NCBI GenBank assembly: GCA_016788685.1
Contig: JAEUSS010000068.1
Span: 1 to 14,996 of the forward strand
Reading direction: 5' to 3'
Source of the DNA: Prolixibacteraceae bacterium
Lineage (GTDB): Bacteria; Bacteroidota; Bacteroidia; Bacteroidales; Prolixibacteraceae
DNA: 14,996 bases
The notes under the pieces were generated by a model. That model searched no databases. It was not told the DNA's origin and worked only from the letters and a program-made list of their open reading frames with translations. Position numbers and translations under genes: made by a program. Below are positions 1,172-14,383 of the stretch, in pieces. How positions within the stretch are numbered: the first letter of the stretch is position 1; the number at the start of each line of letters is the position of its first letter.

Positions 1172-1203
1172 AAAAAACCGGATTCGTCCAAATCCGGTTT
1201 TTT
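1172..1203. terminator. Bidirectional intrinsic terminator
   Basis: A perfect inverted repeat pairs AAAAAACCGGAT (1172-1183) with ATCCGGTTTTTT (1192-1203) around a short loop, giving a GC-containing stem with a T tract on either strand. It lies 46 nt beyond the stop of the leftward TIM-barrel gene and is the natural end of the cytochrome-oxidoreductase-isomerase transcript. Confidence 0.85.
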
Positions 1204-1249: not shown

Positions 1250-2155
1250 TCAGGCTTTTTTCCACTGTTCGCGCATGAGTTTTACGGCTGCCGGAAGTGT
1301 CACCTTCGGATCGCCAACCGAGCCGCACTCAAAACTCACGTAATCCTGATAGTTAATTTCCTTCAGGCCACGGAAGCCGTTGATGTAATTGTCGGCCTCA
1401 CCGTCTTCTCCGGGCATTTTGCGCCGTTTGCGGCTGGCAATGTGCACGTGGTGCAAATAGTCGCCTGCAGCCAGGAAAGCGGCGCGGTCGTTGGTTTCTT
1501 CCCAGGTCATGTGCCAGAAGTCGCCCATTACGGCTGCTCCCGCGCTGTCAACGTCGCGCACAATGGCAGCACCGTCGGCCACCTGCCTGCAGAAATAGCA
1601 TTCCTTCCGATTCAGTGGTTCGAGTAAGATACGGGTTTGATGCTGGAGGGCGAATTCGCCCAGTTCTTTCATCTGGCCCACTAAAAGGTCGCGGGCTTCT
1701 TTGTCGGGCAGTGATTTCTGGTTGTTGAATGCCGGAACAAAAATCACTCCGGTAGATCCCAGTTCGCCTGCTGCCGCGATGATAACCTTCATCGAATCCA
1801 TACATTTTTTCTGAATGGCAGCATCATCGGCAATGAGCCAGCCTTCGAATCCGGCACAGATGGCGCTTACTTTCATGTTGCGGTTCTGCAGCGCCTGTTG
1901 GATTTCGTTTACTCTTTTTTCAAGGCCTCCACCCCAGATTTCGAGCCCGACAATGTCGAGCGATTCCATAAAATCGAGTTTTTCGGTCAGGGTTTTGCCC
2001 GGGGCAACGCCTTCCTGACACGAAATCTTCAATTTGGAGGAATGTTTTTTTTCTGAAGATGCATCACTTTTGAAAGAAGAGAAAAGGCCGCCCGATGCTG
2101 CCAGTGCAGCACCGGAAACGGCCGTTCCTAAAAAAGATCTTCTGTTAAGAGGCAT
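1250..2155 (-). CDS. Tat-exported sugar isomerase/epimerase-like TIM-barrel protein
   Basis: A 301-residue protein of the xylose-isomerase-like TIM-barrel superfamily (AP endonuclease 2 / hydroxypyruvate isomerase / ketose 3-epimerase group). A twin-arginine signal (N-R-R-S-F-L, R5-R6, then a hydrophobic alanine-rich stretch) predicts folded export to the periplasm. The barrel runs from about residue 42 to 298. Likely divalent-metal ligands match the family pattern: E179 in L-L-E-P-L-N-R, D212 in G-D-F-W-H with H215, H238 in H-V-H-I, and E276 in S-F-E-C-G. It is the last gene of a leftward unit: only 3 nt separate its ATG from the TAA of the oxidoreductase gene, so translation is probably coupled. 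Given this pairing it may isomerise, epimerise or eliminate an oxidised (for example 3-keto) sugar made by the oxidoreductase. That is inference; the exact substrate cannot be read from the sequence. Confidence 0.88.
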   Translation of the reverse strand: MPLNRRSFLGTAVSGAALAASGGLFSSFKSDASSEKKHSSKLKISCQEGVAPGKTLTEKLDFMESLDIVGLEIWGGGLEKRVNEIQQALQNRNMKVSAICAGFEGWLIADDAAIQKKCMDSMKVIIAAAGELGSTGVIFVPAFNNQKSLPDKEARDLLVGQMKELGEFALQHQTRILLEPLNRKECYFCRQVADGAAIVRDVDSAGAAVMGDFWHMTWEETNDRAAFLAAGDYLHHVHIASRKRRKMPGEDGEADNYINGFRGLKEINYQDYVSFECGSVGDPKVTLPAAVKLMREQWKKA

Positions 2156-2158
2156 GTC

Positions 2159-3568
2159 TTAACGTGTTTGGTTTCCCTGCGGTGTTCCTGCGATATGGAT
2201 AAATTCGGGCAGTTTAAATTCTTTTCCTGCACCGTAGCCTTCTTTGGCAACAGCCATAGTTTTGGTCATATCGATATCTTTCGGCATAAGGTCAAGCGGC
2301 GAAGCAGACATTTCGTCCCAGGTGACTTTCTTTCCGGAGTAAGCCGATTCACGTCCCATGATGGCAGCCAGGTTGGCCACAGCCGTTTCGGATGCCTGTT
2401 CAATCGGTTTTCCGGCGCGGATATGGTTAATCCAGTTCACGTGTTCCAGCGTGTATGGGTCGGTTTGTTTGAAGTTGGTTTTTTCAGCTTCGTAGTCGTA
2501 TTTCCATATTTCGTTGCCTTTCAGGTCTTTGATGATGTGTCCGTCGGAAGTCCACGAACCTTTGGTGCCCTGAATAAATTCCCAGACGCCGCCTTCAGTT
2601 CCGTTGATCTGGCGGCAGGTGCTGTGAATGTGGATACCGTTTTCCATTTCAAAATCGACACTGAAATTGTCGAACTGGTTACCGGTAACACGGCGCTGAC
2701 GCGAGCCGAATCCAAGCGCTGATTTTGGTTTTAATCCGGAGAACCAGGTGAATACATCGATATTGTGGACGTGTTGTTCGACAATATGGTCACCCGAAAG
2801 CCATTCCCAGTTTACCCAGTCGCGGATCATCCATTCCAGGTCTGACCAAGCGGGGTTGCGGTCTTTGAACCAGAGCATACCGCCGCACCAGTAAACCGTT
2901 CCGCCGGTTATTTCGCCGATCGCCCCGTTCATGATTTGTTCGTATGAAGCTACATAATCGCGTTTATGGTGGCGTTGTGTGCCGGTTACCACGGAAAGGC
3001 CTTTTGCCTGGGCCTGTTTTGCCGTGGCTACAATGGTGCGGTAACCTACCGCGTCAACACAAATCGGTTTTTCGAGGAAGCAATGTTTGCCTTTTTCGAC
3101 CGCGTATTTGAAAATTTCGGGGCGGAAATTAGGTGGGGTGGCGGTAATAATCACGTCCACGTCGCTATCGATGACTTTCTGATAAGAATCGAGTCCCACA
3201 AATTTTTTATCTGCTGCAATGTCGATATTTTTTTCATTTTTCAGCTTTTCAGCTAAGCCTTCCAACCGGTCGGCATAAGTGTCGCCTAAAGCAACGATCG
3301 TCACATTGTCGGCGGCGTTGAGGAAGTTAAACGCTGCGCCGGATCCACGTCCGCCACAGCCTATTATTCCGGCTTTCAGCGGTTTGCCATCGGCCGCCTT
3401 ATCAACCAGGCTGGGCAGATAATAAGAGCCCGGCTCTTTTAGTGGCTGTATTTTTGGCGTACTGCTGCACGATGCCAATGTTGCAACACTTCCGGTGCCA
3501 ATTGCACCCAATGCTCCGGCCAAAGCCGAGCTTTTTAAGAATGAACGTCTGTCAACACCTTTTTTCAT
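2159..3568 (-). CDS. Tat-exported Gfo/Idh/MocA-family oxidoreductase
   Basis: A 469-residue NAD(P)-dependent sugar dehydrogenase-type protein. Residues 1-34 form a twin-arginine signal (D-R-R-S-F-L, R7-R8) that ends in L-A-S-C (C34), so it may also be lipidated. A Rossmann domain follows (about 65-185), with G-I-I-G-C-G-G-R-G at 67-75 and the family's E-K-P at 166-168, whose lysine is usually catalytic. The C-terminal alpha/beta domain carries a His/Asp/Glu cluster at 260-271 (D260, H261, E264, H266, H268, D271), typical of the exported Bacteroidota/Planctomycetes subgroup. Exported members usually hold the cofactor tightly, as in glucose-fructose oxidoreductase, and need a second substrate or redox partner for turnover. 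It sits 33 nt after the cytochrome-FGE-like gene and 3 nt before the TIM barrel. The GH109 glycosidase branch was considered, but the E-K-P motif favours an oxidoreductase. Confidence 0.9.
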   Translation of the reverse strand: MKKGVDRRSFLKSSALAGALGAIGTGSVATLASCSSTPKIQPLKEPGSYYLPSLVDKAADGKPLKAGIIGCGGRGSGAAFNFLNAADNVTIVALGDTYADRLEGLAEKLKNEKNIDIAADKKFVGLDSYQKVIDSDVDVIITATPPNFRPEIFKYAVEKGKHCFLEKPICVDAVGYRTIVATAKQAQAKGLSVVTGTQRHHKRDYVASYEQIMNGAIGEITGGTVYWCGGMLWFKDRNPAWSDLEWMIRDWVNWEWLSGDHIVEQHVHNIDVFTWFSGLKPKSALGFGSRQRRVTGNQFDNFSVDFEMENGIHIHSTCRQINGTEGGVWEFIQGTKGSWTSDGHIIKDLKGNEIWKYDYEAEKTNFKQTDPYTLEHVNWINHIRAGKPIEQASETAVANLAAIMGRESAYSGKKVTWDEMSASPLDLMPKDIDMTKTMAVAKEGYGAGKEFKLPEFIHIAGTPQGNQTR

Positions 3569-3601
3569 AACTTATTAGTTTTAGTATGGAAAATCAGTTA
3601 A

Positions 3602-5155
3602 TTATTGAACTTTAATTGAATTGTCTGGTTCACACACAACCCTGAAACCGATGGCTTTAATATCCGAGTACCACCAGATACTTTTAGGCTGCTGCGGGTC
3701 GGTTTTCAGCCATGCTTCGTGCTGGCTGTGGTCGCGGGCGGCTGCACGCACATCGGCGGCATCCGAAATATAACTTCCTCCGCGTACAACCCATTCCTCG
3801 CCTTCGGTTACCAGCGGATTAGTTACATTCCCGCCGTTTTTGGCATAAGCGTCGGGTGCGTAGCGGTCGGCACAATATTCCATTACGTTGCCCAGCATAT
3901 TTTTCAGGCCAAAGGGATTAGGTTTAACCTCGTCGGGCAACTGTGTTCTGCCTTTACTATTGTTCACATAAATGATGTACTGCGAAATCGGTTCGGTTTC
4001 GGCATCCGAAATTTTACGCCACAGACCTTTGTTAGAGAATTTATCCGGTTTCCCGTCAAAGAAATACGGTGTTTCAGTGCCACCGCGAGCCGCGTATTCC
4101 CATTCAGCTTCGGTGGGCAGGCGGTATTTTTTACCGGTTTTCTTTGAAAGCCACTGGCAGAAGGTTTCCGCTGCATAATGGGTCATGGTAATTGCCGGGC
4201 GTTTGCCAAAGCCCCAGTTCTGATCGGGTCGTCCGTACGGCGGAGTGGGACCGGAAATTGCATCCACGTTCGGGTTGCTGTTGTTGGCATAAATCTGCTC
4301 GGGCGGAGTGCGTCCTTCGCTCATGGTGTTGCCGTAGAATGCCCAATACTGTTCCCAGGTTGTTTCTACTTCGGCCATAAAAAACGGGCTGACTGTAACC
4401 TGGCGTACCGGTGATTCATCGGGTTCGCGGAGAGGTTCCTTTTCGGGGCTGCCCATGTTAAACGTGCCGCCTTTGACGGCTATCATCTTAAACGTAACTG
4501 ATGTGCCGGGAATCTGCTCGGTGTAGTCGGCAAAAGTTGTTACGCTGGTTGCCTGTTCAAAAACGGTTTTCAGACTGTCGGAGCTATCGTCGGTTTGTCC
4601 CGGAATGCCGGTCATTCTGCCGTGTTTGTAATCCGGGTTATAATGCCCGACATCGAGGTGGCAGCTGATGCACTGCAAATCCAGATTCTTCTCGTTATTT
4701 TCATAGTAAAGGTGAGCTGCTATGCCTGCGTCCGCTAAATCTTTCGGAAACAGGTTTTGGTGGCAATGCTTGCACGATGCGTTCGGAATATACTTCACGG
4801 CATGTTCCAGTTCAGACTTCATTTCCCAGTTGAATTCGGCCGAATCTTTGAAGAGGAAACCGTAGACATCTTTAATTCCCAGCCTGGTCTTTTCAATCAG
4901 ATAGCCCTCGCCTTTGGGAGGTAAATGGCAGTCGACACAATGCACCTTAATACCGCTTTTGTTGTCGTAATGGGTGGATAACTTCCAGGAGTCAAAGACA
5001 TGCGGATGCACATGGCAGGAGGCACAAAAATCGTCTGTTGAGGTATATTCGACGGCTTTATTCCCGAAAATGGCAGCCAGGATTCCAATAGCAAATGAGA
5101 AGAATAGTACGAGTAAAATACGTTTGCGGAAGAATTCTATCAACTTTTTAAGCAT
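3602..5155 (-). CDS. NapC/NirT-type tetraheme cytochrome c fused to FGE/SUMF1-fold domain
   Basis: A 517-residue two-part protein counted from ATG 5153-5155. The N-terminal half is a NapC/NirT/NrfH-type quinol-linked cytochrome: one membrane anchor (about 12-32), then four c-heme motifs C-A-S-C-H (44-48), C-V-D-C-H (73-77), C-K-H-C-H (128-132) and C-I-S-C-H (162-166), with the H-Y-x-N and C-H-L-P contexts of the family. The C-terminal half (about 215-509) is a formylglycine-generating-enzyme/SUMF1 fold, with M-G-S near its start, L-P-T-E-A-E-W-E-Y-A-A-R-G-G and R-G-G-S-Y near the end, and G-F-R at 503-505. Genuine FGEs carry two catalytic cysteines just after G-G-S-W/Y; here the first is Ser and the loop with the second is shortened, so sulfatase activation is unlikely. 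A longer reading from TTG 5200 adds 15 residues, but that codon overlaps a predicted promoter element. It is first in a leftward unit with the oxidoreductase and TIM barrel; electron transfer to or from them is plausible but unproven. Confidence 0.9.
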   Translation of the reverse strand: MLKKLIEFFRKRILLVLFFSFAIGILAAIFGNKAVEYTSTDDFCASCHVHPHVFDSWKLSTHYDNKSGIKVHCVDCHLPPKGEGYLIEKTRLGIKDVYGFLFKDSAEFNWEMKSELEHAVKYIPNASCKHCHQNLFPKDLADAGIAAHLYYENNEKNLDLQCISCHLDVGHYNPDYKHGRMTGIPGQTDDSSDSLKTVFEQATSVTTFADYTEQIPGTSVTFKMIAVKGGTFNMGSPEKEPLREPDESPVRQVTVSPFFMAEVETTWEQYWAFYGNTMSEGRTPPEQIYANNSNPNVDAISGPTPPYGRPDQNWGFGKRPAITMTHYAAETFCQWLSKKTGKKYRLPTEAEWEYAARGGTETPYFFDGKPDKFSNKGLWRKISDAETEPISQYIIYVNNSKGRTQLPDEVKPNPFGLKNMLGNVMEYCADRYAPDAYAKNGGNVTNPLVTEGEEWVVRGGSYISDAADVRAAARDHSQHEAWLKTDPQQPKSIWWYSDIKAIGFRVVCEPDNSIKVQ

Positions 5156-5197: not shown

Positions 5198-5205
5198 CAA
5201 AAATA
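5198..5205 (-). promoter_or_regulatory. Candidate -7 promoter element for the cytochrome-oxidoreductase unit
   Basis: Read leftward the bases are TATTTTTG, a full match to the Bacteroidota -7 consensus TAnnTTTG. Transcription would begin near 5190 and leave a leader of roughly 35 nt before ATG 5155. The element overlaps the alternative TTG start at 5198-5200, supporting the downstream ATG. No convincing -33 TTTG sits at the usual distance, so the call is tentative. Confidence 0.4.
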
Positions 5206-5462: not shown

Positions 5463-6563
5463 ATGAATTTGGAAAAGATTGCAGCCATGTTTCAGCTCGA
5501 AGGAAAGGTTAAGAAAGTAGAGCAGATGGGCGAAGGGTTTATTAATGACACGTTTATCATTTATAATGCAGAAGAATCGGCTCCCGATTATCTTTTGCAG
5601 CGCAAAAATAAACGAATTTTCACCAACGTTCCGGCTATGATGGAGAACATCATGAAGGTAACCACTCATATCAAGAAAAAGGTAGTTGCACGGAACGGAG
5701 ATCCGATGCGCGAGGCAATGACTGTGGTTCCGGCCATTGACGGGAAATTGTTTTACCAGGATGAAGACGGAGAATATTGGGCCGTTTGTGTTTTCATCAG
5801 CAATACCATCACGTATCAGGCTGCAAAAACACCCGAACTGGCTTATCAGGGAGGAAAAGGGATCGGCTTGTTTCAATCGCTGGTTTCAGATCTGAACGAA
5901 CCGCTCACCGACATTTTGCCCGGATTTCACAATATTCGCTTCCGGTTTAATCAGTGGGATGCGGTGTTGGCTAAAGATCCGGCAGGGCGCAAAGCCAAAC
6001 TGGCAACCGAAATCAGCTGGATCGAAAGTCGTCGCGAAGAAATGCTGAACTTCTGGACACTGGTTGAGAACGGAGAGATTCCAACCCGGATTACACACAA
6101 CGACACTAAAATCAACAACATTTTGTTCGATCAGCAAGGCAATGTACTGTGTGTGATCGACCTGGATACGGTGCTGAACAGTACTTGTCTCAACGATTTT
6201 GGTGATGCCATGCGTTCGTATACCAATACCGGTCAGGAAGACGATAGTAATCTGGATGCGGTTTCATGCGATCTGTCTATCTTCGAGGGTTTTACGCGCG
6301 GATATCTTTCGCAGGCCATCACTTTCCTGAATAAAAAGGAACTTGAATACCTGGCTTTCTCGGCTAAATACATTACTTATGAGCAGGTTTTACGCTTCCT
6401 GATGGACTACATTGACGGAGACAACTATTACAGGATTAAAAGTCCGGAGCACAATTATCAGCGTACTCTTGCCCAGTATAAGCTGCTGACCAGCATGGAG
6501 GAACAGTATGATAAAATGTGCCATATTGTGAGCGATATTGCTGCAGAACAGGCGCAAAACTAG
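5463..6563 (+). CDS. nahK: N-acetylhexosamine 1-kinase homologue (NahK-like phosphotransferase)
   Basis: A 366-residue cytoplasmic protein of the APH/choline-kinase fold, close in length and in local motifs to Bifidobacterium NahK, which phosphorylates GlcNAc/GalNAc at C1. Visible features are G-E-G-F-I-N-D-T-F at 23-31 (ATP loop), Y-L-L-Q-R-K-N at 43-49, the catalytic Brenner-type motif T-H-N-D-T-K-I-N-N at 211-219 (D214 the probable base), D-L-D-T at 233-236 (metal ligand), and the C-terminal R-F-L-x-D-Y-I-D-G-D and P-E-H-N stretches also found in NahK. Bacteroidota relatives are often labelled mucin-desulfation (MdsC) or aminoglycoside phosphotransferase; a resistance role is unlikely here. 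The product, HexNAc-1-phosphate, could feed nucleotide-sugar or glycolytic routes. It has a good ribosome-binding site, its own promoter candidate, and lies 50 nt upstream of the CBM9-like gene. Its presence suggests the locus handles a HexNAc-containing glycan. Confidence 0.85.
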   Translation: MNLEKIAAMFQLEGKVKKVEQMGEGFINDTFIIYNAEESAPDYLLQRKNKRIFTNVPAMMENIMKVTTHIKKKVVARNGDPMREAMTVVPAIDGKLFYQDEDGEYWAVCVFISNTITYQAAKTPELAYQGGKGIGLFQSLVSDLNEPLTDILPGFHNIRFRFNQWDAVLAKDPAGRKAKLATEISWIESRREEMLNFWTLVENGEIPTRITHNDTKINNILFDQQGNVLCVIDLDTVLNSTCLNDFGDAMRSYTNTGQEDDSNLDAVSCDLSIFEGFTRGYLSQAITFLNKKELEYLAFSAKYITYEQVLRFLMDYIDGDNYYRIKSPEHNYQRTLAQYKLLTSMEEQYDKMCHIVSDIAAEQAQN

Positions 6564-6613: not shown

Positions 6614-7258
6614 ATGAAAGTTCAGCAAATACTGGGAGGTTTTTCAAATCCGCCTTTAGAATTGATAGCCGAAACACTCCATCAGGAAGTTGCGCCCCTT
6701 AGGCTGGAGATGGTAAACTGGGATGAATTTCCGTATCACCCGGAAGTTTCGGTTCAGATTGCTTACAATGACGAGGAACTGTTTCTGCAATACCAGGTAA
6801 ACGAACAATCGGTAAAAGCCGAAATCGCCGAAAGTAACGGCCGGGTGTGGACCGACAGCTGCGTGGAGTTCTTTCTGTCGCCGGAAGGGAACGACGAATA
6901 TTACAACCTGGAAATAAACTGCATCGGGACTATCTTGCTGGGTTTCCGGAAAAAAGGGGATCCGGCGGTTCATGCTTCCGAAGAGCAGATCGCTTCTATC
7001 CGCCGGACCTCATCGTTGGGCGATTCTCCGTTTCCGGAGCGAAAAGAGGCAACCAGCTGGCAAATCACAGTGGCCATACCGTGGGGCACATTTTTTAAAC
7101 ACGATTTGAAATCGGTTCCAGAGAAAAAATTCCGCGGTAATTTTTATAAATGCGGAGATGAGCTGAGTGTGCCGCACTTTGTATCGTGGACCAAGATTAA
7201 GACCCCCCAGCCATCTTTCCATAATCCTGAATTTTTTGGAGGATTGGAATTTGAATAG
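6614..7258 (+). CDS. CBM9-like carbohydrate-binding domain protein, no signal peptide
   Basis: A 214-residue protein made of a single CBM9-like beta-sandwich (the carbohydrate-binding family 9-like group of Bacteroidota). Supporting motifs are W36, V-W-T-D-S-C-V-E-F-F-L-S-P at 78-90, Y-Y-N-L-E-I-N at 96-102, the W-Q-I-T-V-A-I-P-W strand at 149-157, and the C-terminal stretch at 191-214 (W191, P198, P200, F202, then P-E-F-F-G). The start has no signal peptide, and an in-frame TAA at 6599-6601 rules out an upstream extension, so the protein is predicted to stay in the cytoplasm. This is unusual for a binding module, though known stand-alone members look similar. The gene follows the NahK-like kinase by 50 nt and precedes the sigma factor by 35 nt, suggesting co-transcription. 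A role in binding a sugar intermediate is a guess. Confidence 0.8.
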   Translation: MKVQQILGGFSNPPLELIAETLHQEVAPLRLEMVNWDEFPYHPEVSVQIAYNDEELFLQYQVNEQSVKAEIAESNGRVWTDSCVEFFLSPEGNDEYYNLEINCIGTILLGFRKKGDPAVHASEEQIASIRRTSSLGDSPFPERKEATSWQITVAIPWGTFFKHDLKSVPEKKFRGNFYKCGDELSVPHFVSWTKIKTPQPSFHNPEFFGGLEFE

Positions 7259-7293: not shown

Positions 7294-7848
7294 ATGCAAA
7301 TGGATGTAGCCGATGATACGTTGATTACGGGCATTAAAAATGATGATTATACGTGTTATAATCAGCTTTTTGTGCGCTATTATCATCGGCTATGTGCATT
7401 TGTTTTTACGCTGACTCAAAATGACAGTGCTTCTGAAGATGTGGTTCAGGAGCTTTTTATCCGGATCTGGGCGAATCGTCAGAAACTGGAGATTAAAGAG
7501 ACTGTTTCGGGATATCTTTACCGGGCTTCGAAAAACGGCGCGCTCAATTACCTGCGGGCTGAAAAAAACCGCCAAAAATCGATTCAGAAGATGCCCGTTC
7601 CGGGATGGCAAAACGATGAGAGTCTGATTGAACAAATAGAGTTCAGTGCAATGCTGAATCAATGCATCAGCCGGTTGCCGGAGCGCAGCCGCGATGTGTT
7701 TCTGAAAAGCCGCTTTGAAGGGATGAAACTGCAGGAGGTCGCTGATCATATGGGCACATCTGTTAAAACCATCAAAAACCAAATCTGGAAATCGCTTTGT
7801 TTCCTGAAAACATGCCTTGAAGAAAAAGGCGCATTTGGCGGTAAATGA
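7294..7848 (+). CDS. ECF-type RNA polymerase sigma factor (Bacteroidetes-expansion type)
   Basis: A 184-residue group IV sigma factor. Region 2 covers about 24-92, with the F-x-x-Y-Y-x-x-L start, the A-S-E-D-V-V-Q-E-L-F-I-R-I-W helix (46-59) for core binding and -10 recognition, and Y-L-Y-R-A-S-K-N-x-A-L-N-Y-L-R (74-88). Region 4 covers about 125-172, with the L-P-E-R-S-R-D-V-F helix and a helix-turn-helix around G-M-K-L-Q-E-V-A-D-H-M-G-T-S-V-K-T-I-K. Length and motifs fit the family that controls SusCD loci in Bacteroidota. The ATG at 7294 has an AGAAGGG ribosome-binding site. The next gene is the FecR-type anti-sigma factor (149 nt downstream), then an STN-bearing SusC, so it is expected to drive susCD expression when the glycan is transported. 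Confidence 0.95.
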   Translation: MQMDVADDTLITGIKNDDYTCYNQLFVRYYHRLCAFVFTLTQNDSASEDVVQELFIRIWANRQKLEIKETVSGYLYRASKNGALNYLRAEKNRQKSIQKMPVPGWQNDESLIEQIEFSAMLNQCISRLPERSRDVFLKSRFEGMKLQEVADHMGTSVKTIKNQIWKSLCFLKTCLEEKGAFGGK

Positions 7849-7997
7849 CTGTGTTTCTGTACTTATTTTTCTTTTAAACTTCCGGATTCTTTTTTTTGTA
7901 CCCCCAAAGTTTTCCGTATCTGAATTATTTTTAAAATAACTGAGATCGGGATAGGACCTTTCCGGAGTCAAGGTGTCTTGAAGGAAAACAAACAGGC
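7849..7997 (+). promoter_or_regulatory. Sigma/anti-sigma intergenic region with possible ribosome-binding-site hairpin
   Basis: The 149-nt gap holds a long T tract (7889-7897), a CCCCC-AAAGT block (7901-7910), an AT palindrome TTATTTT-T-AAAATAA (7925-7939), and a hairpin TCAAG-GTGT-CTTGA (7968-7981). Outer pairing of TTTCC (7959-7963) with GGAAA (7983-7987) would place the GGAA ribosome-binding site of the FecR gene inside the stem. This could lower or gate anti-sigma translation; it is only a pairing seen by eye. Confidence 0.35.
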
Positions 7998-8987
7998 ATG
8001 GAAGAGCAGCTTCCGAAAGGAGAACATCTGGTTGATTATTTGGAAGAAGGAGAGCATCCGGTCTCCGGAAATCCTGATTTGGATTCGTGGCGGCAGGCAG
8101 ATCCGCGGAACGAAAGTGATCTGGAGAAATACCAGAGAATATGGAAAGCAAGTACGGGCGCTGCTGCTTTCAGCAAATTTGACACTTCAGCGGCGTGGGC
8201 AAAGGTCAATTCGTTGCTTGCTGATCAGGATGTTCGCACGAGAAGGTTGAAAAACCTGATGTATGTCGCTTCGGGAGTTGCCGCCTCGCTGTTTATTATA
8301 CTCGGTCTGGCGTTTTATACCCGGTTTTTCGTTATTTCGGATTCGGCCATTTCCATGAAAACTACCAACGGAAGCCGCTCCGAGGTTGTTCTGCCCGATG
8401 GTTCGGTGGTAAAACTCAATGCAGGTTCCAGCCTGAACTATCATTTCGACAAGATACATAAGGTTAGGGAAGTTAATTTTAGCGGCGAAGGCTTCTTTGA
8501 AGTAAGTAAAAGTACTCAGCCATTTGTAATTGAAACCGCCGAAGGCTTACGGGTAAGAGTACTTGGGACTAAATTTAATCTGAGCACTTATCCAGAAGAC
8601 AGGGCTGTTCGTACTACGCTGGTAGAAGGAAAGGTCGAACTTAGTATGGACGGGGCAGACCAGATGGTTCTCGCTTCCGGGCAAATGGCTTCTTTCGACA
8701 AAGAATCAAAAACACTGAAATATGATGAAGGTGAAGTCTCACATCAGATTGGCTGGCTTCAGAATAAACTGTACATGGACAACATGTCACTTAACGAGGT
8801 TTGTTCCAAGCTTGAACGCTGGTATGATGTAAATATATCGTTAGCTGACCGGGAGCTGGGAGAAAAGATACATTATACCGGAGTCCTGAAAGAAGAATCA
8901 GTAGCCGATGTGATGAGTGCCCTGAGCCAGTTGAGCAACATTGCCTATCAAATAGAAGGGAAAGAAATCGTTCTTTCCGGAAAGTAG
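7998..8987 (+). CDS. FecR-type transmembrane anti-sigma factor
   Basis: A 329-residue inner-membrane regulator. The N-terminal cytoplasmic part (1-84), with the W-R-Q-A-D and Y-Q-R-I-W motifs of anti-sigma FecR proteins, would hold the sigma factor. One transmembrane helix lies at about 88-107. The periplasmic FecR domain (about 118-215) includes T-x-N-G-S-R-S-E-V-x-L-P-D-G-S-V-V-x-L-N, F-x-G-E-G-F-F-E-V and V-L-G-T-K-F-N-L. A C-terminal DUF4974-type domain (about 257-328), with D-N-M-S-L-N-E-V and L-E-R-W-Y-D-V, is the usual partner of the STN domain on SusC. It lies between the sigma factor and susC, the standard order of these signalling loci. The start at 7998 follows AAGGAA by about 11 nt. 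Confidence 0.95.
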   Translation: MEEQLPKGEHLVDYLEEGEHPVSGNPDLDSWRQADPRNESDLEKYQRIWKASTGAAAFSKFDTSAAWAKVNSLLADQDVRTRRLKNLMYVASGVAASLFIILGLAFYTRFFVISDSAISMKTTNGSRSEVVLPDGSVVKLNAGSSLNYHFDKIHKVREVNFSGEGFFEVSKSTQPFVIETAEGLRVRVLGTKFNLSTYPEDRAVRTTLVEGKVELSMDGADQMVLASGQMASFDKESKTLKYDEGEVSHQIGWLQNKLYMDNMSLNEVCSKLERWYDVNISLADRELGEKIHYTGVLKEESVADVMSALSQLSNIAYQIEGKEIVLSGK

Positions 8988-9008
8988 CAGCTGTTTGCAG
9001 AAAAAAAA

Positions 9009-9032
9009 CGGAAGATGTGTCAGCATCTTCCG
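9009..9032 (-). terminator. Hairpin with T tract on the minus strand, between anti-sigma gene and susC
   Basis: A perfect 9-bp stem pairs CGGAAGATG (9009-9017) with CATCTTCCG (9024-9032) around a 6-nt loop. Eight A residues (9001-9008) flank its left side, so the T run that completes an intrinsic terminator is on the leftward strand. Rightward, no T run follows, so it would act as a structured spacer or RNA-stabilising hairpin in a fecR-susC transcript rather than a strong terminator. Confidence 0.5.
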
Positions 9033-9048
9033 CATGTCTTAGATAATA

Positions 9049-9095
9049 AGTCAAATGCTACCAACATTTGACTGAGTTAATTAACTAATAGCATT
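9049..9095 (+). promoter_or_regulatory. Structured susC leader with two mutually exclusive pairings
   Basis: A perfect 9-bp hairpin, AGTCAAATG (9049-9057) with CATTTGACT (9065-9073), is followed by a 12-bp palindrome AGTTAATTAACT (9075-9086). Bases AATGCTA (9054-9060) can instead pair with TAGCATT (9089-9095), which would break the first hairpin and end 8 nt before the susC ATG. This could be a regulatory leader or an operator; no known riboswitch class is recognised. Confidence 0.4.
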
Positions 9096-9103
9096 ACAAA
9101 TCT

Positions 9104-12100
9104 ATGAAAAAAAGTTATGAATCAGGGAAGAGTATTTTTTACATTCCCCCAAAGTTAATGTTGGTTATGAAACTAACTGCTATCTTGCTCATCTTCTTTG
9201 CCATGCATGTATCGGCAACGGTGTATTCTCAGAGCACCAAGTTGTCGCTTGATATGCGGCAGTCAACCATTAAGGAAGTGCTTCAGCAAATCGAAGCGCA
9301 GTCGGAGTACCGTTTCATTTATGAAAATGAAGAAGTAAATCTCGACTCTAAAGTGAATATCAGAGTAAGCAATGAAGTTGTCGAGAATATTCTGAAGCTT
9401 TTGTTTGACAGAGAGGGAGTCAGCTACTCAATTACCGAGAGTAACCTGATTCTGATCAATCCGTCGGCTAAGCAGATGAAGAATCTGATTAACGGATCAT
9501 CCAACTCTCTTCAGAAAAAGACGGTCACAGGAAGAGTTACCGATTCCGGAGGTGCTCCGGTTCCGGGAGTTTCGGTGGTTCTAAAAGGGACAACAAACGG
9601 AACCATTACAGACTCCAACGGGAATTATTCGATTGCCAATATTCCTGAAAATGCAAGCTTGCAATTTTCATTTGTTGGTATGAAGATGCAGGAAGTTTCT
9701 GTAGGTGACAGAACATCGATTGATGTTTCGCTTGCAGAGGAGTCCATCGGTATTGAGGAAGTTGTGGCTGTTGGTTACGGAGTGCAGAAAAAGGTAAACC
9801 TAACCGGATCCGTAGAAGTAGTTAAGAGCGAAGCTCTGGCCAACCGTTCGACGACTACTGTTTCTCAGGCTCTTCAGGGGAAAGTTTCGGGCGTTAACTT
9901 TAGTACCGGGAATTTCGGATTTGAACCAGGAGCCGCATTGAACATTGTAATTCGCGGGCAGGGAACTCCTTTAGTCCTTATTGATGGTGTCCCCGGATCG
10001 TTGAACGGACTTAATCCCAACGACATCGAATCCATGTCAGTACTGAAGGATGCTGCGGCAGCCGCGATATACGGGGCGCAGGCTCCTTATGGAGTGGTAT
10101 TGGTCACCACCAAATCGGGAAAACTGGATAACAAGCTGAATATTGAGTTTTCGTCATCGGTTTCAAGTATCAGGCCCATCCGGATGCCACATCATGCCGA
10201 TTCTTATACAACCGCACTGGCGCTAAACGAGGCTTGTGTTAATGCGGGCATTACGCCGATATTCACCAATGCCACCATCGACCGGATTATAAAATATCAG
10301 GCCGATCCGGTAAATACCCCGGAGACGGTGCCGTCGAGTTCGAATGCCGCTTTATGGGCTACCACAATTGAAAGTAACGCAAATTACGACTGGTTTGATG
10401 TTTATTACGGAGAAGGCCTGAGAAATCAGGAAAATCTGTCCGTTAGCGGAGGATCGAAAGCGGTATCTTACTACGTCTCAGCCGGTCATATTTATGATGA
10501 AGGGGTTCTTCAGGTTGCTACCGATGATTATCGCCGGTATAATGCCACTGCAAAATTTGATGCTAATATGACGAAATGGTTCAAGTTTTCATCTAACAGC
10601 CGATACTACAACACGATCAGGCAAAGACCGGCTTATGACAATCAGGGAGACTACGAACTGATGTTTCACCAGGTAGCCAGGACATTTCCATCGCAGTATA
10701 TGATTTCACCCAATGGCGTTTATTCGGTACAATCAAAAATTCCGTGGGCCAGAGACGCCGGAAGAGAGACCTGGAATACGAACGATTTTGTTAATCGGTT
10801 TGCTACCGAAATCACTCCGCTGAAAAACTGGACAATTAACGCCGACTATTCGTTCCGGCTGAGGCACGAAGAATTTACTTCAAATAATTACACCGTGTAT
10901 GAAGATAAAGTGGATGGCTCGCCGCTCATTTCAGGAAGTACATCTCCGTCGCATGTTAAAAAGTCGCAGGAGCTTTTTTTCTATAATACCCTGAATGCTT
11001 ATACTACTTACAAGTTCGATCTGGGAGCAAAAAACCATTTTTCGGTTATGGCCGGATACCAGCAGGAACAGTCGCGGACTTCTTACCTGTGGAGCAGAAA
11101 AAATGACATGGTTGCTCAGGAGGTTCCTTCTTTGAGCACTTCAACCGGAACAATTGATGCTACAGACAACTTGTCGGAGTATGCGACTCAGGGCTTTTTT
11201 ACCCGCTTAAACTACAATTTTGAAGAAAAATATTTGTTTGAGGTAAACAGCAGGTACGACGGGACCTATAAGTTTGCTGCTGATAAACGCTGGGGCTTTT
11301 TTCCCTCTGTTTCTGTTGGTTGGAATGCTTCCAACGAAAGGTTTTGGGAGAATATTCGTCCATGGGTCAATTTGTTGAAAATCAGGTCGTCGTGGGGCGG
11401 ATTAGGTAATCAGCTTACCGCTGCAGCTTATCAGGATCTTCCGTTGATGGGAGTCGGTTCAAATCTTGGATGGATTTTAAATAGCCGGCGCCCCGGATAT
11501 ACGACAGCTCCCAATCTTGTAAATACTGCTGTTACCTGGGAGACTGCCGCAACCAAAGATTTAGGGATTGATTTAGGTTTTCTTAAAAACAGGTTGACCT
11601 TTACCGGAGATATTTATCAACGGGATACATACAACCAGTTAGGCCCGGCCGATGCTGTTCCTGCAGTAATAGGAGTAGCAAGTAATAACTTGCCGAAATC
11701 AAACAACATGGAAACCGTGACCAACGGATGGGAGTTCACTTTAGTGTGGAGAGATAAAATCGGTAAAGATTTTAATTATTCGGTCACAGCCATGATGTTT
11801 GATTATCAGACCAAAGTAACCAAATACAATAATCCCACAAAAATCCTGACCAATCCGTATGCAGGACAAAAAACCGGTGAGATATGGGGTTTTGTCAGTG
11901 ACGGGTTGATCCAGACACAAGCTGATGCTGATGCAATCAATAGCGGAAGTATTCAGAAAGCCGTATCCGGACAATTGTGGAAAACCGGTGATGTTAAATA
12001 TACCGACCTGACAGGAGAGGGAATTATTACGTACGGGGCTAATACTGCAACCGATCCGGGAGACCGGAGAATTATCGGGAACTCTACCCCGAGATATCAG

Positions 12101-12616
12101 TATGGATTAACCTTAGCTGCCAACTGGAAAGGGTTCGACTTCTCCATGTTTTGGCAAGGCGTGGGTAAACGTGATCTGATGCTGAGCGGAAATATGTTCT
12201 GGGGATTTAATTCGTCGATACAAGGCTCAATATTTCCGGGACATCTGGATTATTACCGCGACGCGGAAGCTGATACTTATAAAGGGCTTGGAATCAATAC
12301 CGATGCCTATTTCCCCCGCCCGTATACCGACCAGAATATGAACCTGAAAAACCAGGTCACACAAACCCGCTATTTGCAGAATGGTGCATTTGCCCGGTTG
12401 AAAACTATCCAGCTCGGATACAATTTTCCGGAGAAATTGCTTGATCGGATTAAAATGCAGAACTTATACTTCTATGTTTCAGGTGAGAATATCTGGACGA
12501 TAACCAAAATGGCTGAATACCTTGATCCGGAAACAGCGAATGTCGGAAGCAGAGGAGATGGCAAGTCATATTTCTCGCAGGCCGCATTTACGGTAGGTAT
12601 TAATGTTAAATTTTAA
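9104..12616 (+). CDS. SusC/RagA-type TonB-dependent receptor with N-terminal STN signalling domain
   Basis: A 1170-residue outer-membrane receptor. The signal peptide has a long polar start and ends near V-Y-S-Q (residue 43); internal Met at 19 or 22 could be alternative starts. Domains in order are STN (about 48-120), CarboxypepD-reg-like beta-sandwich (141-215, V-T-G-R-V-T-D), a TonB-box-like E-E-V-V-A-V-G-Y-G (218-226), plug (about 229-345, with R-G-Q-G-T-P-L-V-L-I-D-G-V-P-G and Y-G-x-x-x-P-Y-G-V-V-L-V-T-T), then a 22-strand-type barrel ending in an aromatic F as required for outer-membrane assembly. The STN domain marks it as a transducer that signals through FecR to the sigma factor, so the transported glycan probably induces its own locus. 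The SusD gene starts 12 nt downstream. The substrate cannot be read from the sequence. Confidence 0.96.
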   Translation: MKKSYESGKSIFYIPPKLMLVMKLTAILLIFFAMHVSATVYSQSTKLSLDMRQSTIKEVLQQIEAQSEYRFIYENEEVNLDSKVNIRVSNEVVENILKLLFDREGVSYSITESNLILINPSAKQMKNLINGSSNSLQKKTVTGRVTDSGGAPVPGVSVVLKGTTNGTITDSNGNYSIANIPENASLQFSFVGMKMQEVSVGDRTSIDVSLAEESIGIEEVVAVGYGVQKKVNLTGSVEVVKSEALANRSTTTVSQALQGKVSGVNFSTGNFGFEPGAALNIVIRGQGTPLVLIDGVPGSLNGLNPNDIESMSVLKDAAAAAIYGAQAPYGVVLVTTKSGKLDNKLNIEFSSSVSSIRPIRMPHHADSYTTALALNEACVNAGITPIFTNATIDRIIKYQADPVNTPETVPSSSNAALWATTIESNANYDWFDVYYGEGLRNQENLSVSGGSKAVSYYVSAGHIYDEGVLQVATDDYRRYNATAKFDANMTKWFKFSSNSRYYNTIRQRPAYDNQGDYELMFHQVARTFPSQYMISPNGVYSVQSKIPWARDAGRETWNTNDFVNRFATEITPLKNWTINADYSFRLRHEEFTSNNYTVYEDKVDGSPLISGSTSPSHVKKSQELFFYNTLNAYTTYKFDLGAKNHFSVMAGYQQEQSRTSYLWSRKNDMVAQEVPSLSTSTGTIDATDNLSEYATQGFFTRLNYNFEEKYLFEVNSRYDGTYKFAADKRWGFFPSVSVGWNASNERFWENIRPWVNLLKIRSSWGGLGNQLTAAAYQDLPLMGVGSNLGWILNSRRPGYTTAPNLVNTAVTWETAATKDLGIDLGFLKNRLTFTGDIYQRDTYNQLGPADAVPAVIGVASNNLPKSNNMETVTNGWEFTLVWRDKIGKDFNYSVTAMMFDYQTKVTKYNNPTKILTNPYAGQKTGEIWGFVSDGLIQTQADADAINSGSIQKAVSGQLWKTGDVKYTDLTGEGIITYGANTATDPGDRRIIGNSTPRYQYGLTLAANWKGFDFSMFWQGVGKRDLMLSGNMFWGFNSSIQGSIFPGHLDYYRDAEADTYKGLGINTDAYFPRPYTDQNMNLKNQVTQTRYLQNGAFARLKTIQLGYNFPEKLLDRIKMQNLYFYVSGENIWTITKMAEYLDPETANVGSRGDGKSYFSQAAFTVGINVKF

Positions 12617-12628
12617 TAATGAACGATC

Positions 12629-14383
12629 ATGAAAAAAATTATATTATTCTTTGGATTAATTGCCCTGCTGGCTTCGTGCAGTGATTTTCTGGACCGGGAA
12701 CCTCTCGATCAGATTTCGACCGAGCAATACTGGAAATCAGCCAGAGATCTTGAAAATTATACGCTTCAGTTTTATCCCAATTTCCCGACATTCAGGAATG
12801 TTTCTGCCGGTTATCTCGGAACTATTGGCTGGGATGCTTTCAGGGGTTCTGATCACCAGATTTTTCAAACGCCGTCAACTCAGCTGAACGGAACCAGAAC
12901 GATTGTGCAGTCGGGTGGCGGCTGGAACTGGGATAATATCCGATCGGTAAATATCTTCTTTGAAAATTACAGGAAAGTTGAGGATATTCCGGTCAACGTT
13001 CAACATTTTATTGGCGAGGCGCACTTTTTTAAAGCATGGTTTTATTTTGATTTAGTAAGGCAGTTTGGCGATGTTCCGTGGTATTCCAAATCATTACAGA
13101 TGGATTCGCCGGAACTTTTCAATGCCCGTACTCCCCGGACCCAGGTCATCGACTCGGTATTGTGGCATCTGGATAAAGCTGTTGAGAACCTGAAATTTCT
13201 GAAAGATGCTAATGGAGGAAATAACCGGTTAAGCAAAGAAGCTGCCTTGATATTCAAATCGAGGGTAGCTCTTTTTGAAGGAACCTGGCAGAAGTATCAT
13301 GCCGGTACAGCTTTCGGGACATCGGGAGCTAATGCCAGCAAATATTTGCAGGCAGCGGTTGACGCAGTAACCGAACTAATGACTCCCAACAAATATAAAG
13401 TAGGAATCTTTAGCTCGGGACTTCCCGGAGAAGATTACAACAAGCTATTCTCGTCAACGAACCTGTCTTCCAATACCGAAGTTGTTTTATGGTGCAAGTT
13501 CGATAAAACACAGACTACTTTTTCGCACAATTTTCAGCAATTCATAACCGGGAGAACTTCGCAGGTGAGTGTAACCATGGAGCTGGTTAAAAACTACCTG
13601 GGAAAAGACGGAAATCCGTATGACTATCTGGCCGTTGCCAATACAACCAAAGGGACAGCATTTCTGAGCAAAATTGCCAACGATTGTGACCCCCGCTTAG
13701 CTCAGGTTATCTGGACTCCCGGTCAGGTACAATGGGATAACACTGCCGGGAAGGTGCTGTTTACAAAACCTTATTTGGATAAGTCGGGAGAAGTTAAAAA
13801 TCACACCGGATTTCAGCTGAGGAAGGGAGCCGATCCGAAAGACCCGACCGCAGGAGATGCCCAGGGATTCAGTACCGGATGTGAAACCGGCGCTGTTATT
13901 TTCAGGTATGCCGAGGCTTTGCTGAATTACGCCGAAGCACAGGCTGAATTAGGATTGCCGGTTGACTATAGCAAATCCATAAACCTGTTGAGAAAAAGAG
14001 CAGGTATGCCCGATTTTAAAGTAGTTGCCGATCCGACCCGTACAACTTATGCCGATTTTGGTTATCCGCTAAGCGACGAACTTCAGGAAATCAGAAGAGA
14101 GAGAGCGGTTGAACTTGCCTGTGAAGGGTTTCGGTTCGACGATTGGAGACGCTGGCGTGCCCACAACCTTTTTAGTGGCAAACGCCCCAAAGGATTTCCT
14201 TATTTGAAATCAGAGTATGCTCCAAACCTGGTGGTACTGACTGATGTAAATAACCTGGTTGATGCTTTTCAGAAATCACTTGCCAATGGCTATCAGTTTA
14301 ATGCTGCAAGAGATTATTTGAATTGTATTCCGACGAATGAAATTACCCTAAACCCGGCTTTGGTTCAAAATCCCGGATGGTAA
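12629..14383 (+). CDS. SusD/RagB-type glycan-binding surface lipoprotein
   Basis: A 584-residue outer-membrane lipoprotein with the lipobox L-L-A-S-C (C17), followed by S-D-F-L-D-R-E-P-L-D, the usual start of mature SusD proteins. The body has the TPR-rich SusD fold: an F-x-G-E-A-H/x-F-x-x-A-W-x-Y-F-D-L-V-R-Q-F-G-D-V-P-like stretch around residues 129-152, the L-N-Y-A-E-A-Q-A-E-L helix with N-L-L-R-K-R-A-G near 430-460, and the hallmark R-R-E-R-A-V-E-L-A-C-E-G-F-R-F-D-D-W-R-R-W at about 487-508. It pairs with the SusC receptor (12-nt gap, same strand) as the lid of the transporter. A terminator follows. Binding specificity is not predictable by eye. Confidence 0.96.
   Translation: MKKIILFFGLIALLASCSDFLDREPLDQISTEQYWKSARDLENYTLQFYPNFPTFRNVSAGYLGTIGWDAFRGSDHQIFQTPSTQLNGTRTIVQSGGGWNWDNIRSVNIFFENYRKVEDIPVNVQHFIGEAHFFKAWFYFDLVRQFGDVPWYSKSLQMDSPELFNARTPRTQVIDSVLWHLDKAVENLKFLKDANGGNNRLSKEAALIFKSRVALFEGTWQKYHAGTAFGTSGANASKYLQAAVDAVTELMTPNKYKVGIFSSGLPGEDYNKLFSSTNLSSNTEVVLWCKFDKTQTTFSHNFQQFITGRTSQVSVTMELVKNYLGKDGNPYDYLAVANTTKGTAFLSKIANDCDPRLAQVIWTPGQVQWDNTAGKVLFTKPYLDKSGEVKNHTGFQLRKGADPKDPTAGDAQGFSTGCETGAVIFRYAEALLNYAEAQAELGLPVDYSKSINLLRKRAGMPDFKVVADPTRTTYADFGYPLSDELQEIRRERAVELACEGFRFDDWRRWRAHNLFSGKRPKGFPYLKSEYAPNLVVLTDVNNLVDAFQKSLANGYQFNAARDYLNCIPTNEITLNPALVQNPGW

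Follow-up and report, generated by a model that had tools for sequence, protein, structure and literature searches.

A conserved Bacteroidales operon of two exported sugar enzymes and a tetraheme cytochrome fused to an FGE-like domain: a possible link between periplasmic sugar oxidation and the quinone pool

Organization of the operon

The stretch of DNA analyzed here (the window; 14,996 nucleotides, positions 1 to 14,996 of contig JAEUSS010000068.1) belongs to the Prolixibacteraceae bacterium assembly GCA_016788685.1 and carries an operon of three genes on its reverse strand. The first gene (3602..5155; 517 amino acids from an ATG) encodes a protein, here called CYT-FGE, composed of an anchor, a tetraheme NapC/NirT-type cytochrome and a C-terminal FGE/SUMF1-like domain. 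It is followed by genes for a twin-arginine (Tat)-exported oxidoreductase of the Gfo/Idh/MocA superfamily that is predicted to be a lipoprotein through Cys34 (GFO; 2159..3568; 469 amino acids), and for a Tat-exported, 3KWS-like AP_endonuc_2 TIM barrel of the sugar epimerase/eliminase type (TIM; 1250..2155; 301 amino acids). As a preliminary description of this DNA had observed, the three genes run leftward with gaps of 33 and 3 nucleotides and end at a single terminator. A terminator scan and folding place its hairpin at 1172..1203 on the same strand, with a fold of -16.7 kcal/mol (z -3.5; equally good in 1 of 200 shuffles). CYT-FGE has an alternative, longer start (TTG at 5200); the close relative in locus L008 starts at the ATG. 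The genome from which the window derives encodes TatC and cytochrome c assembly proteins.

Conservation of the operon in Bacteroidales

A scan of species-representative genomes returned 366 relatives of CYT-FGE, of which the best 80 were used (the close loci, mostly from Parabacteroides, Tannerella, Dysgonomonas and Prolixibacteraceae). The preliminary description had named a lack of conserved linkage as one of two results that would refute its functional proposal, but the linkage is conserved: the GFO gene adjoins the CYT-FGE gene in 80 of these 80 relatives, and the TIM gene is present in 77. Two of the three loci that lack TIM (L043 and L057) stop at contig edges, and the third (L050) is a true absence. 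Where open reading frames were called, CYT-FGE and GFO lie on the same strand in 78 of 78 pairs with a median gap of 34.5 nucleotides, and GFO and TIM in 70 of 70 pairs with a median gap of 3.5 nucleotides.

The same association is found across the order. When up to six candidates were scored per genome, CYT-FGE was detected in 28 of 247 genomes of the order (E ≤ 1e-60) and GFO in 29 (E ≤ 1e-90), namely the same 28 and G454; the co-occurrence has a Fisher probability of 4e-36 on 28 and 29 of 247, uncorrected for kinship. Because G454 gave no match to TatC, its contig or its completeness is in doubt. Thirty-two cytochrome places of this survey were examined besides the window (L090 duplicates L050), and in 28 of them GFO adjoins on the same strand; the exceptions are L096 and L097, where the neighboring GFO is encoded on the opposite strand, L103, where about 9 kb separate the two genes, and L120, which stops at a contig edge. 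The distances among CYT-FGE proteins correlate with those among their GFO partners (0.93 for 108 adjacent pairs), but nearest neighbors agree in only 62 of the 108 pairs (19 of 26 if the distant loci are taken by themselves); this agreement of the gene trees lends weak support to the pairing, partly through shared ancestry. That the genes are unrelated and stand together by chance or through regulation only is hardly credible: although 3 of the 28 heme-free loci described below (L199, L200 and L201) lack GFO, the linkage counts across many families exclude chance in practice.

A second CYT-FGE/GFO pair (55% and 45% identical) lies elsewhere in the genome of the window (contig C632 of G000, locus L101, 54-2943), and it seems to move as a unit, because the nearest relatives of both genes are in L100, from another family. 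In a scan of plasmids, 469 records match CYT-FGE, but only one of them covers at least 80% of the protein. A circular record of 277 kb that is labeled as plasmid 45 of Parabacteroides distasonis TSDC17.2-1.1 carries the module (L197; NZ_OY725790.1, 7962-11891).

The surroundings of the operon differ between loci. Just 3′ of the terminator, the window contains a lipoprotein-like open reading frame without a Pfam or NCBIfam match (429-1049). Divergent genes for an APH-family kinase (5463-6563) and a CBM9_2 protein (6614-7258) stand on the other side, and they are beside the operon in 7 of the 80 close loci, those of the closest relatives (L008-L014). Positions 7294-14383 hold, on the other strand, genes for an ECF sigma factor, FecR, and SusC-like and SusD-like proteins, an arrangement like that of a polysaccharide utilization locus. 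In L036 (12870-14192) and equivalent loci, a protein of about 236 amino acids without a Pfam match and a LuxR-type regulator are encoded 3′ of the operon; merged into one cluster, these comprise 93 open reading frames in 52 of the 80 loci, many of them from Parabacteroides and Tannerella.

The exported enzymes and their probable chemistry

GFO matches the Pfam domains PF01408, PF02894 and PF22725, the first two above the cut-off, and the EKP motif of the superfamily is present in all of the 111 aligned family members defined in the next section. Its signal contains a twin arginine (3545..3550) and a lipobox, LASC, ending in Cys34 (3467..3478), which predicts a Tat lipoprotein, a feature absent from the preliminary description; the twin arginine of the TIM signal lies at 2138..2143 (all on the reverse strand). 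The export of both enzymes by this route, as previously proposed, agrees with an RRx[FL] motif near the start of 109 of 111 GFO and 77 of 77 TIM proteins. TatC is encoded in 27 of the 29 genomes with GFO and was not found in G382 and G454. Another Gfo/Idh/MocA protein, of 388 amino acids and without an obvious signal peptide, is encoded upstream of the operon in 39 of the 80 close loci (for example, L016, 877-2040).

TIM matches PF01261 at 113 bits, and its residues E179, D212, H238 and E276, which we take to be the metal site, show conservation of 97% or more across 77 sequences. Its closest relative is 3KWS, a putative sugar isomerase, followed by 6WN6, a 3-keto-D-glucoside 4-epimerase; in L036, from a Parabacteroides distasonis genome, the operon TIM aligns over 286 residues (E 8e-197) with 3KWS, which presumably originates from that species. 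PF01261 is presumably also shared by a TIM barrel of established activity. That enzyme, which is of the sugar-phosphate-isomerase type, beta-eliminates 3-keto-glycosides with Mn2+, and its operon includes a Gfo-type reductase (PMC10628242, in part). In addition, BT2158 is a periplasmic glycoside 3-dehydrogenase required for growth on several disaccharides (PMC11300592, in part).

At least 14 of 33 cytochrome places (window included) have a TIM barrel within 4 kb, as against 1.03 expected. The possibility that the TIM barrel is the trait of a subgroup was rejected, since distant loci, too, repeatedly have exported TIM barrels of other kinds nearby. ThuA proteins are encoded near L096 and L100, GMC oxidoreductases near L184 and L204, further Gfo/Idh/MocA proteins near some loci, and DUF1080 3-keto-disaccharide hydrolases near L108, L202 and L208. 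DUF1080 as a regular neighbor was not borne out; a small custom profile detected it in 2 of 28 heme-free, 2 of 32 order and 2 of 80 close loci. Chemistry of the 3-keto-glycoside type is thus indicated by the TIM barrels, together with the DUF1080 or ThuA genes found at a few of the loci, and the earlier suggestion of such chemistry fits the nearest relatives of TIM and some of the neighbors.

Domains of the CYT-FGE protein

The N-terminal part of CYT-FGE corresponds to the NapC/NirT domain PF03264 (amino acids 12-175; 4631..5122) and contains four heme motifs, CASCH (5012..5026), CVDCH (4925..4939), CKHCH (4760..4774) and CISCH (4658..4672), all on the reverse strand. The 111 family members that were aligned (110 of them distinct) are that of the window, 80 from the close loci and 30 from the order loci, of which the fragments L119 and L120 were omitted from the full 32; all 111 retain four CxxCH motifs. 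The N-terminal hydrophobic segment scores above 1.6 in 108 of the 111, and lysine and arginine are richer before this segment than after it in 110, in agreement with the periplasm-facing cytochrome of the preliminary description. A CcsBA-type cytochrome-assembly gene stands 3′ of the TIM gene in 5 of the 80 close loci (two confirmed by Pfam). Apart from the CYT-FGE genes, no open reading frame with at least three heme motifs is present in the 80 close loci, and the only others in the 32 order loci are an NrfH-like and NrfA-like pair in L117. A role of CYT-FGE as the small subunit of a nitrite reductase was rejected; this single pair stands apart from the operon genes.

The C-terminal part is an FGE/SUMF1-like domain (PF03781; amino acids 223-479; 3719..4489, reverse strand); every one of the 111 aligned members has it joined to the cytochrome. 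The position of the first copper cysteine of FGE is occupied by Ser464, with serine in 100 of 111 members and cysteine in none of the residues listed, and that of the second, located from the spacing of the two cysteines, by V, L, I or T in 111 of 111. A function in sulfatase maturation was rejected on the grounds that the FGE copper cysteines are missing; sulfatases themselves were not searched for. W494, W495 and R505 are invariant. The best match of CYT-FGE in both NCBIfam and the PDB is PvdO, a SUMF1-like protein annotated as dihydropyoverdine dehydrogenase. There is accordingly a small chance that the FGE-like domain is the catalytic redox end of the cytochrome, like PvdO, with GFO and TIM preparing its substrate; the invariable fusion to the cytochrome would suit such a function, and the idea is compatible with the other readings discussed below. 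However, the match reaches 89 bits, far under the PvdO family cut-off of 500, and the catalytic cysteine of FGE is absent at the aligned first position.

Possible path of the electrons

The reading best supported by these data, with chances that are roughly even, is a periplasmic sugar-redox module that passes the electrons of sugar oxidation via CYT-FGE to menaquinone. The core of the module would be the FGE/SUMF1-like partner and the Tat-exported, membrane-anchored GFO, which would keep its own NAD(P), and the exported, metal-dependent TIM barrel would perform keto-sugar epimerization or beta-elimination. In Bacteroidales, fusion of the partner to a NapC/NrfH-type tetraheme cytochrome would most likely carry the GFO electrons to menaquinone. 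The substrates are probably glycosides oxidized at C3, and the direction is probably that of oxidation, downhill from NADH to menaquinone, with the cofactor held captive. The FGE-like domain presumably contacts the oxidoreductase physically, and a flavin placed by ApbE may perform the step from hydride to heme.

Several observations weigh against this reading, beginning with the quinone site. Lys82 and Asp89 of NrfH, which presumably belong to the quinol site, align with K89 (kept in 111 of 111 members) and D96 (110 of 111) of CYT-FGE. Both are named as conserved residues of NrfH (PMC4683180, in part), and Met49 and Asp89 have been called essential for menaquinol oxidation (PMC10654088, in part). 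Met49, the ligand of heme 1 in the NrfH motif CxxCHxM, corresponds to H50, and the residue is histidine in all 111 members. Because this essential residue is replaced throughout the family, the quinone site, judged by its aligned residues, is partly kept and partly changed, and not a plain NrfH site. The connection to the quinone pool proposed in the preliminary description underlies the best-supported reading, and the two retained residues fit it.

The direction of electron flow is a second difficulty, in that characterized NapC/NrfH proteins oxidize quinol, which is the opposite of what is proposed here. It is possible, if rather unlikely, that the module works reductively, with menaquinol electrons passing outward via CYT-FGE in the style of NrfH, NapC or TorC to reduce a keto-sugar or another periplasmic acceptor. 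NrfH, a member of this family of quinol dehydrogenases, does match CYT-FGE, and the lysine and aspartate of the quinol site are kept. Nevertheless, reduction of NAD+ by menaquinol would be uphill, as judged from the redox potentials, the Met49 ligand needed for quinol oxidation is lost throughout, and the close and order loci offer no multiheme partner gene beyond the pair in L117 (molybdenum-type reductases were not searched for).

The oxidoreductase itself also tempers the proposal of sugar oxidation at C3 by the respiratory route. GFO resembles solved enzymes, which include inositol dehydrogenases, DgpA and glucuronide-3-dehydrogenase, only remotely. Moreover, GFO lies outside the BT_2158 family (NF058561), because it scores 31.3 bits against a cut-off of 750. 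Of 17 oxidoreductase places in which no cytochrome gene immediately adjoined within one run of genes, 14 (L180-L193) lack CYT-FGE in the stretch examined, several of them being near contig edges; 13 of these 14 GFO copies sit in genomes with a CYT-FGE/GFO pair elsewhere. Beside one such copy, in L184 (5002-9233), are genes for a nine-heme cytochrome with a weak NapC/NirT match and for a GMC oxidoreductase, a neighborhood that can be taken as another sign of respiratory company.

A further objection comes from homologues of the FGE-like domain that have no hemes. When 296 genomes were sampled from the phylum, whole-protein matches (E ≤ 1e-60) were confined to the genome of the window, but a search of the same sample with the FGE-like domain only revealed heme-free homologues in other orders and classes. 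In the heme-free set, which consists of all 28 places outside the window genome at E ≤ 1e-40, GFO lies within 1.5 kb of the FGE-like gene in 25 of 28 (it is missing from the three loci named above), an exported TIM lies within 5 kb in 13, and neither the FGE-like proteins nor any other frame of the 28 loci contain three or more heme motifs. Because GFO is retained in 25 of the 28, the FGE-like protein and GFO may be regarded as the core and the cytochrome as a Bacteroidales addition. In this unrooted comparison, the two look like the older pair, onto which the cytochrome was fused in Bacteroidales. Thus, the view that the cytochrome is needed everywhere, implicit in the preliminary description, did not hold, and the cytochrome is more plausibly seen as adapting the module to anaerobic life than as essential to the chemistry.

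The heme-free loci also bear on a further explanation, in which the core is redox-neutral: GFO would oxidize and later re-reduce the same sugar, or act on two sugars in the style of glucose-fructose oxidoreductase, with a captive cofactor, and the cytochrome would reset a mis-set enzyme or provide an anchor. This explanation is unlikely, although it deserves some weight (the chances assigned to the rival explanations are not mutually exclusive). The retention of GFO in heme-free loci and the 14 GFO copies without CYT-FGE suggest that a linked cytochrome is dispensable for the chemistry, and Tat-exported aldose-aldose and glucose-fructose oxidoreductases of the Gfo/Idh/MocA superfamily are known (PMC4628093, in part). 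On the other hand, CYT-FGE and GFO occur together almost without exception in the genomes of the order, and the invariance or near-invariance of four hemes and two quinone-site residues exceeds the needs of an anchor.

A possible flavin in the FGE-like domain

Electron transfer from GFO to quinone through CYT-FGE meets, finally, a chemical obstacle. NADH donates hydride and hemes accept single electrons, so a converter is needed; the direct transfer from NADH to heme envisaged in the preliminary description provides none and would be chemically awkward. The linkage of ApbE genes to some of the loci, together with an ApbE-like loop, suggests a covalent flavin as this converter. The target motif of ApbE is D-x-x-[ST]-G-A-[ST] (PMC12052999, in part), and the FGE-like domain contains a nearly invariant loop, D298-A-I-S-G-P-T304 (4244..4264, reverse strand), that resembles it. 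The FGE-like domain could then be a new kind of ApbE substrate, in which the NAD(P)H bound in GFO would donate hydride to a covalent FMN at T304 and the hemes would pass single electrons to menaquinone; this is a speculative proposal that is more probably wrong than right by a wide measure.

Residues D, G and T of the loop are kept in all 111 members, and the Ser/Thr position is I or V in two. In six genomes, the loop is matched by 7 of 7 fused proteins and by 0 of 21 other SUMF1-type proteins, a comparison that shows only that the loop belongs to the subfamily. ApbE genes, all above the Pfam cut-off, occur within 6 kb of 8 of the 28 heme-free FGE-like genes. The chance expectation is 0.135 in 28, which presumes 1.5 copies per 4.2 Mb and is uncorrected for kinship; this density was suggested by 38 matches, some of them fragments of one gene, in 28 genomes other than the heme-free ones. 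The gene order FGE-oxidoreductase-ApbE-TIM is found in L204, L214 and L221, and L206 has the same order without TIM. In L204, a GMC oxidoreductase and another Gfo/Idh/MocA protein are encoded a few genes away from this run (3-2708). A divergent ApbE gene stands beside 4 of the 80 fused genes (one confirmed by Pfam), whereas searches of the 32 order loci and of the 17 oxidoreductase loci without an adjoining cytochrome gene found no ApbE.

Other features of the loop argue against a flavin. The exact ApbE motif is present in 4 of 111 members, 104 have a version with proline for its alanine, and three have neither form; counted by position alone, proline replaces the alanine in 105 of 111. The heme-free homologues, in which the linkage to ApbE is strongest, have arginine in place of the glycine in 24 of 28, and no open reading frame in the first 18 heme-free loci carries the strict motif. 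Moreover, no FMN_bind domain is among the Pfam matches of CYT-FGE. An eLife survey of flavinylation states that ApbE substrates remain to be identified, and its main text does not contain the words Gfo, MocA, sulfatase or formylglycine (PMC8238504).

Relation to known systems and biological significance

With the quinol dehydrogenases NrfH, NapC and CymA, CYT-FGE has in common the N-terminal anchor, four CxxCH motifs, and the lysine and aspartate of the quinol site. It differs from them in its FGE-like fusion and in the exchange of Met49 for histidine, and its operon encodes no NrfA-like multiheme partner (NapA and TorA were not searched for). Two systems of periplasmic sugar oxidation are related in function. 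LacABC has a cytochrome subunit of a different kind from the present one, and LacA is an FAD-dependent GMC enzyme, not a Gfo/Idh/MocA protein; BT2158 is a member of the Gfo/Idh/MocA superfamily, and we know of no cytochrome linked to it. The LacABC-type glycoside 3-dehydrogenases of Caulobacter and Pedobacter likewise perform membrane-bound 3-oxidation of sugars in the periplasm (PMC9007349, in part). The BT2158 pathway of Bacteroides thetaiotaomicron (PMC11300592, in part) shares periplasmic glycoside dehydrogenase chemistry, putative in the present case, and features of 3-keto-glycoside metabolism, namely a 6WN6-related TIM and DUF1080 genes near a few loci, but its dehydrogenase family does not include GFO. 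Oxidation-elimination operons of the AtOGE/AtHYD and DgpA types also combine oxidoreductases with sugar-isomerase-like TIM barrels, whereas neither a cytochrome nor an FGE domain is mentioned for them in the portion of the source drawn on here (PMC10628242).

The FGE-like domain shares PF03781 with the FGE/SUMF1, EgtB and PvdO superfamily but differs from these proteins in the lack of the FGE copper cysteines and in its fusion to hemes. The DinB-type iron domain that marks EgtB is also absent from CYT-FGE. With the extracytosolic redox systems flavinylated by ApbE, the module shares ApbE genes in or beside some loci and an ApbE-like loop in the FGE-like domain, although this loop mostly has proline for alanine and CYT-FGE has no FMN_bind domain.

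No paper on this operon or this fusion was found in the portion of the open-licence PMC literature that was covered. The module would combine exported enzymes of the 3-keto-glycoside type with a quinone cytochrome of the NapC type, the FGE-like domain acting as adaptor. If the flavin in this domain is real, the module would relay electrons in the periplasm from NADH to quinone in the service of sugar oxidation; flavinylated proteins of a kind that may be new are thereby indicated. For the question of how exported NAD-type sugar enzymes handle their electrons outside the cytoplasm, the module provides a compact and conserved case, including one in Parabacteroides distasonis, a genetically workable species, and the heme-free counterparts outside the order provide a natural control. 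The module is widespread in Bacteroidales and apparently unstudied, and it suggests that gut and environmental bacteria wire extracellular sugar chemistry into the respiratory chain.

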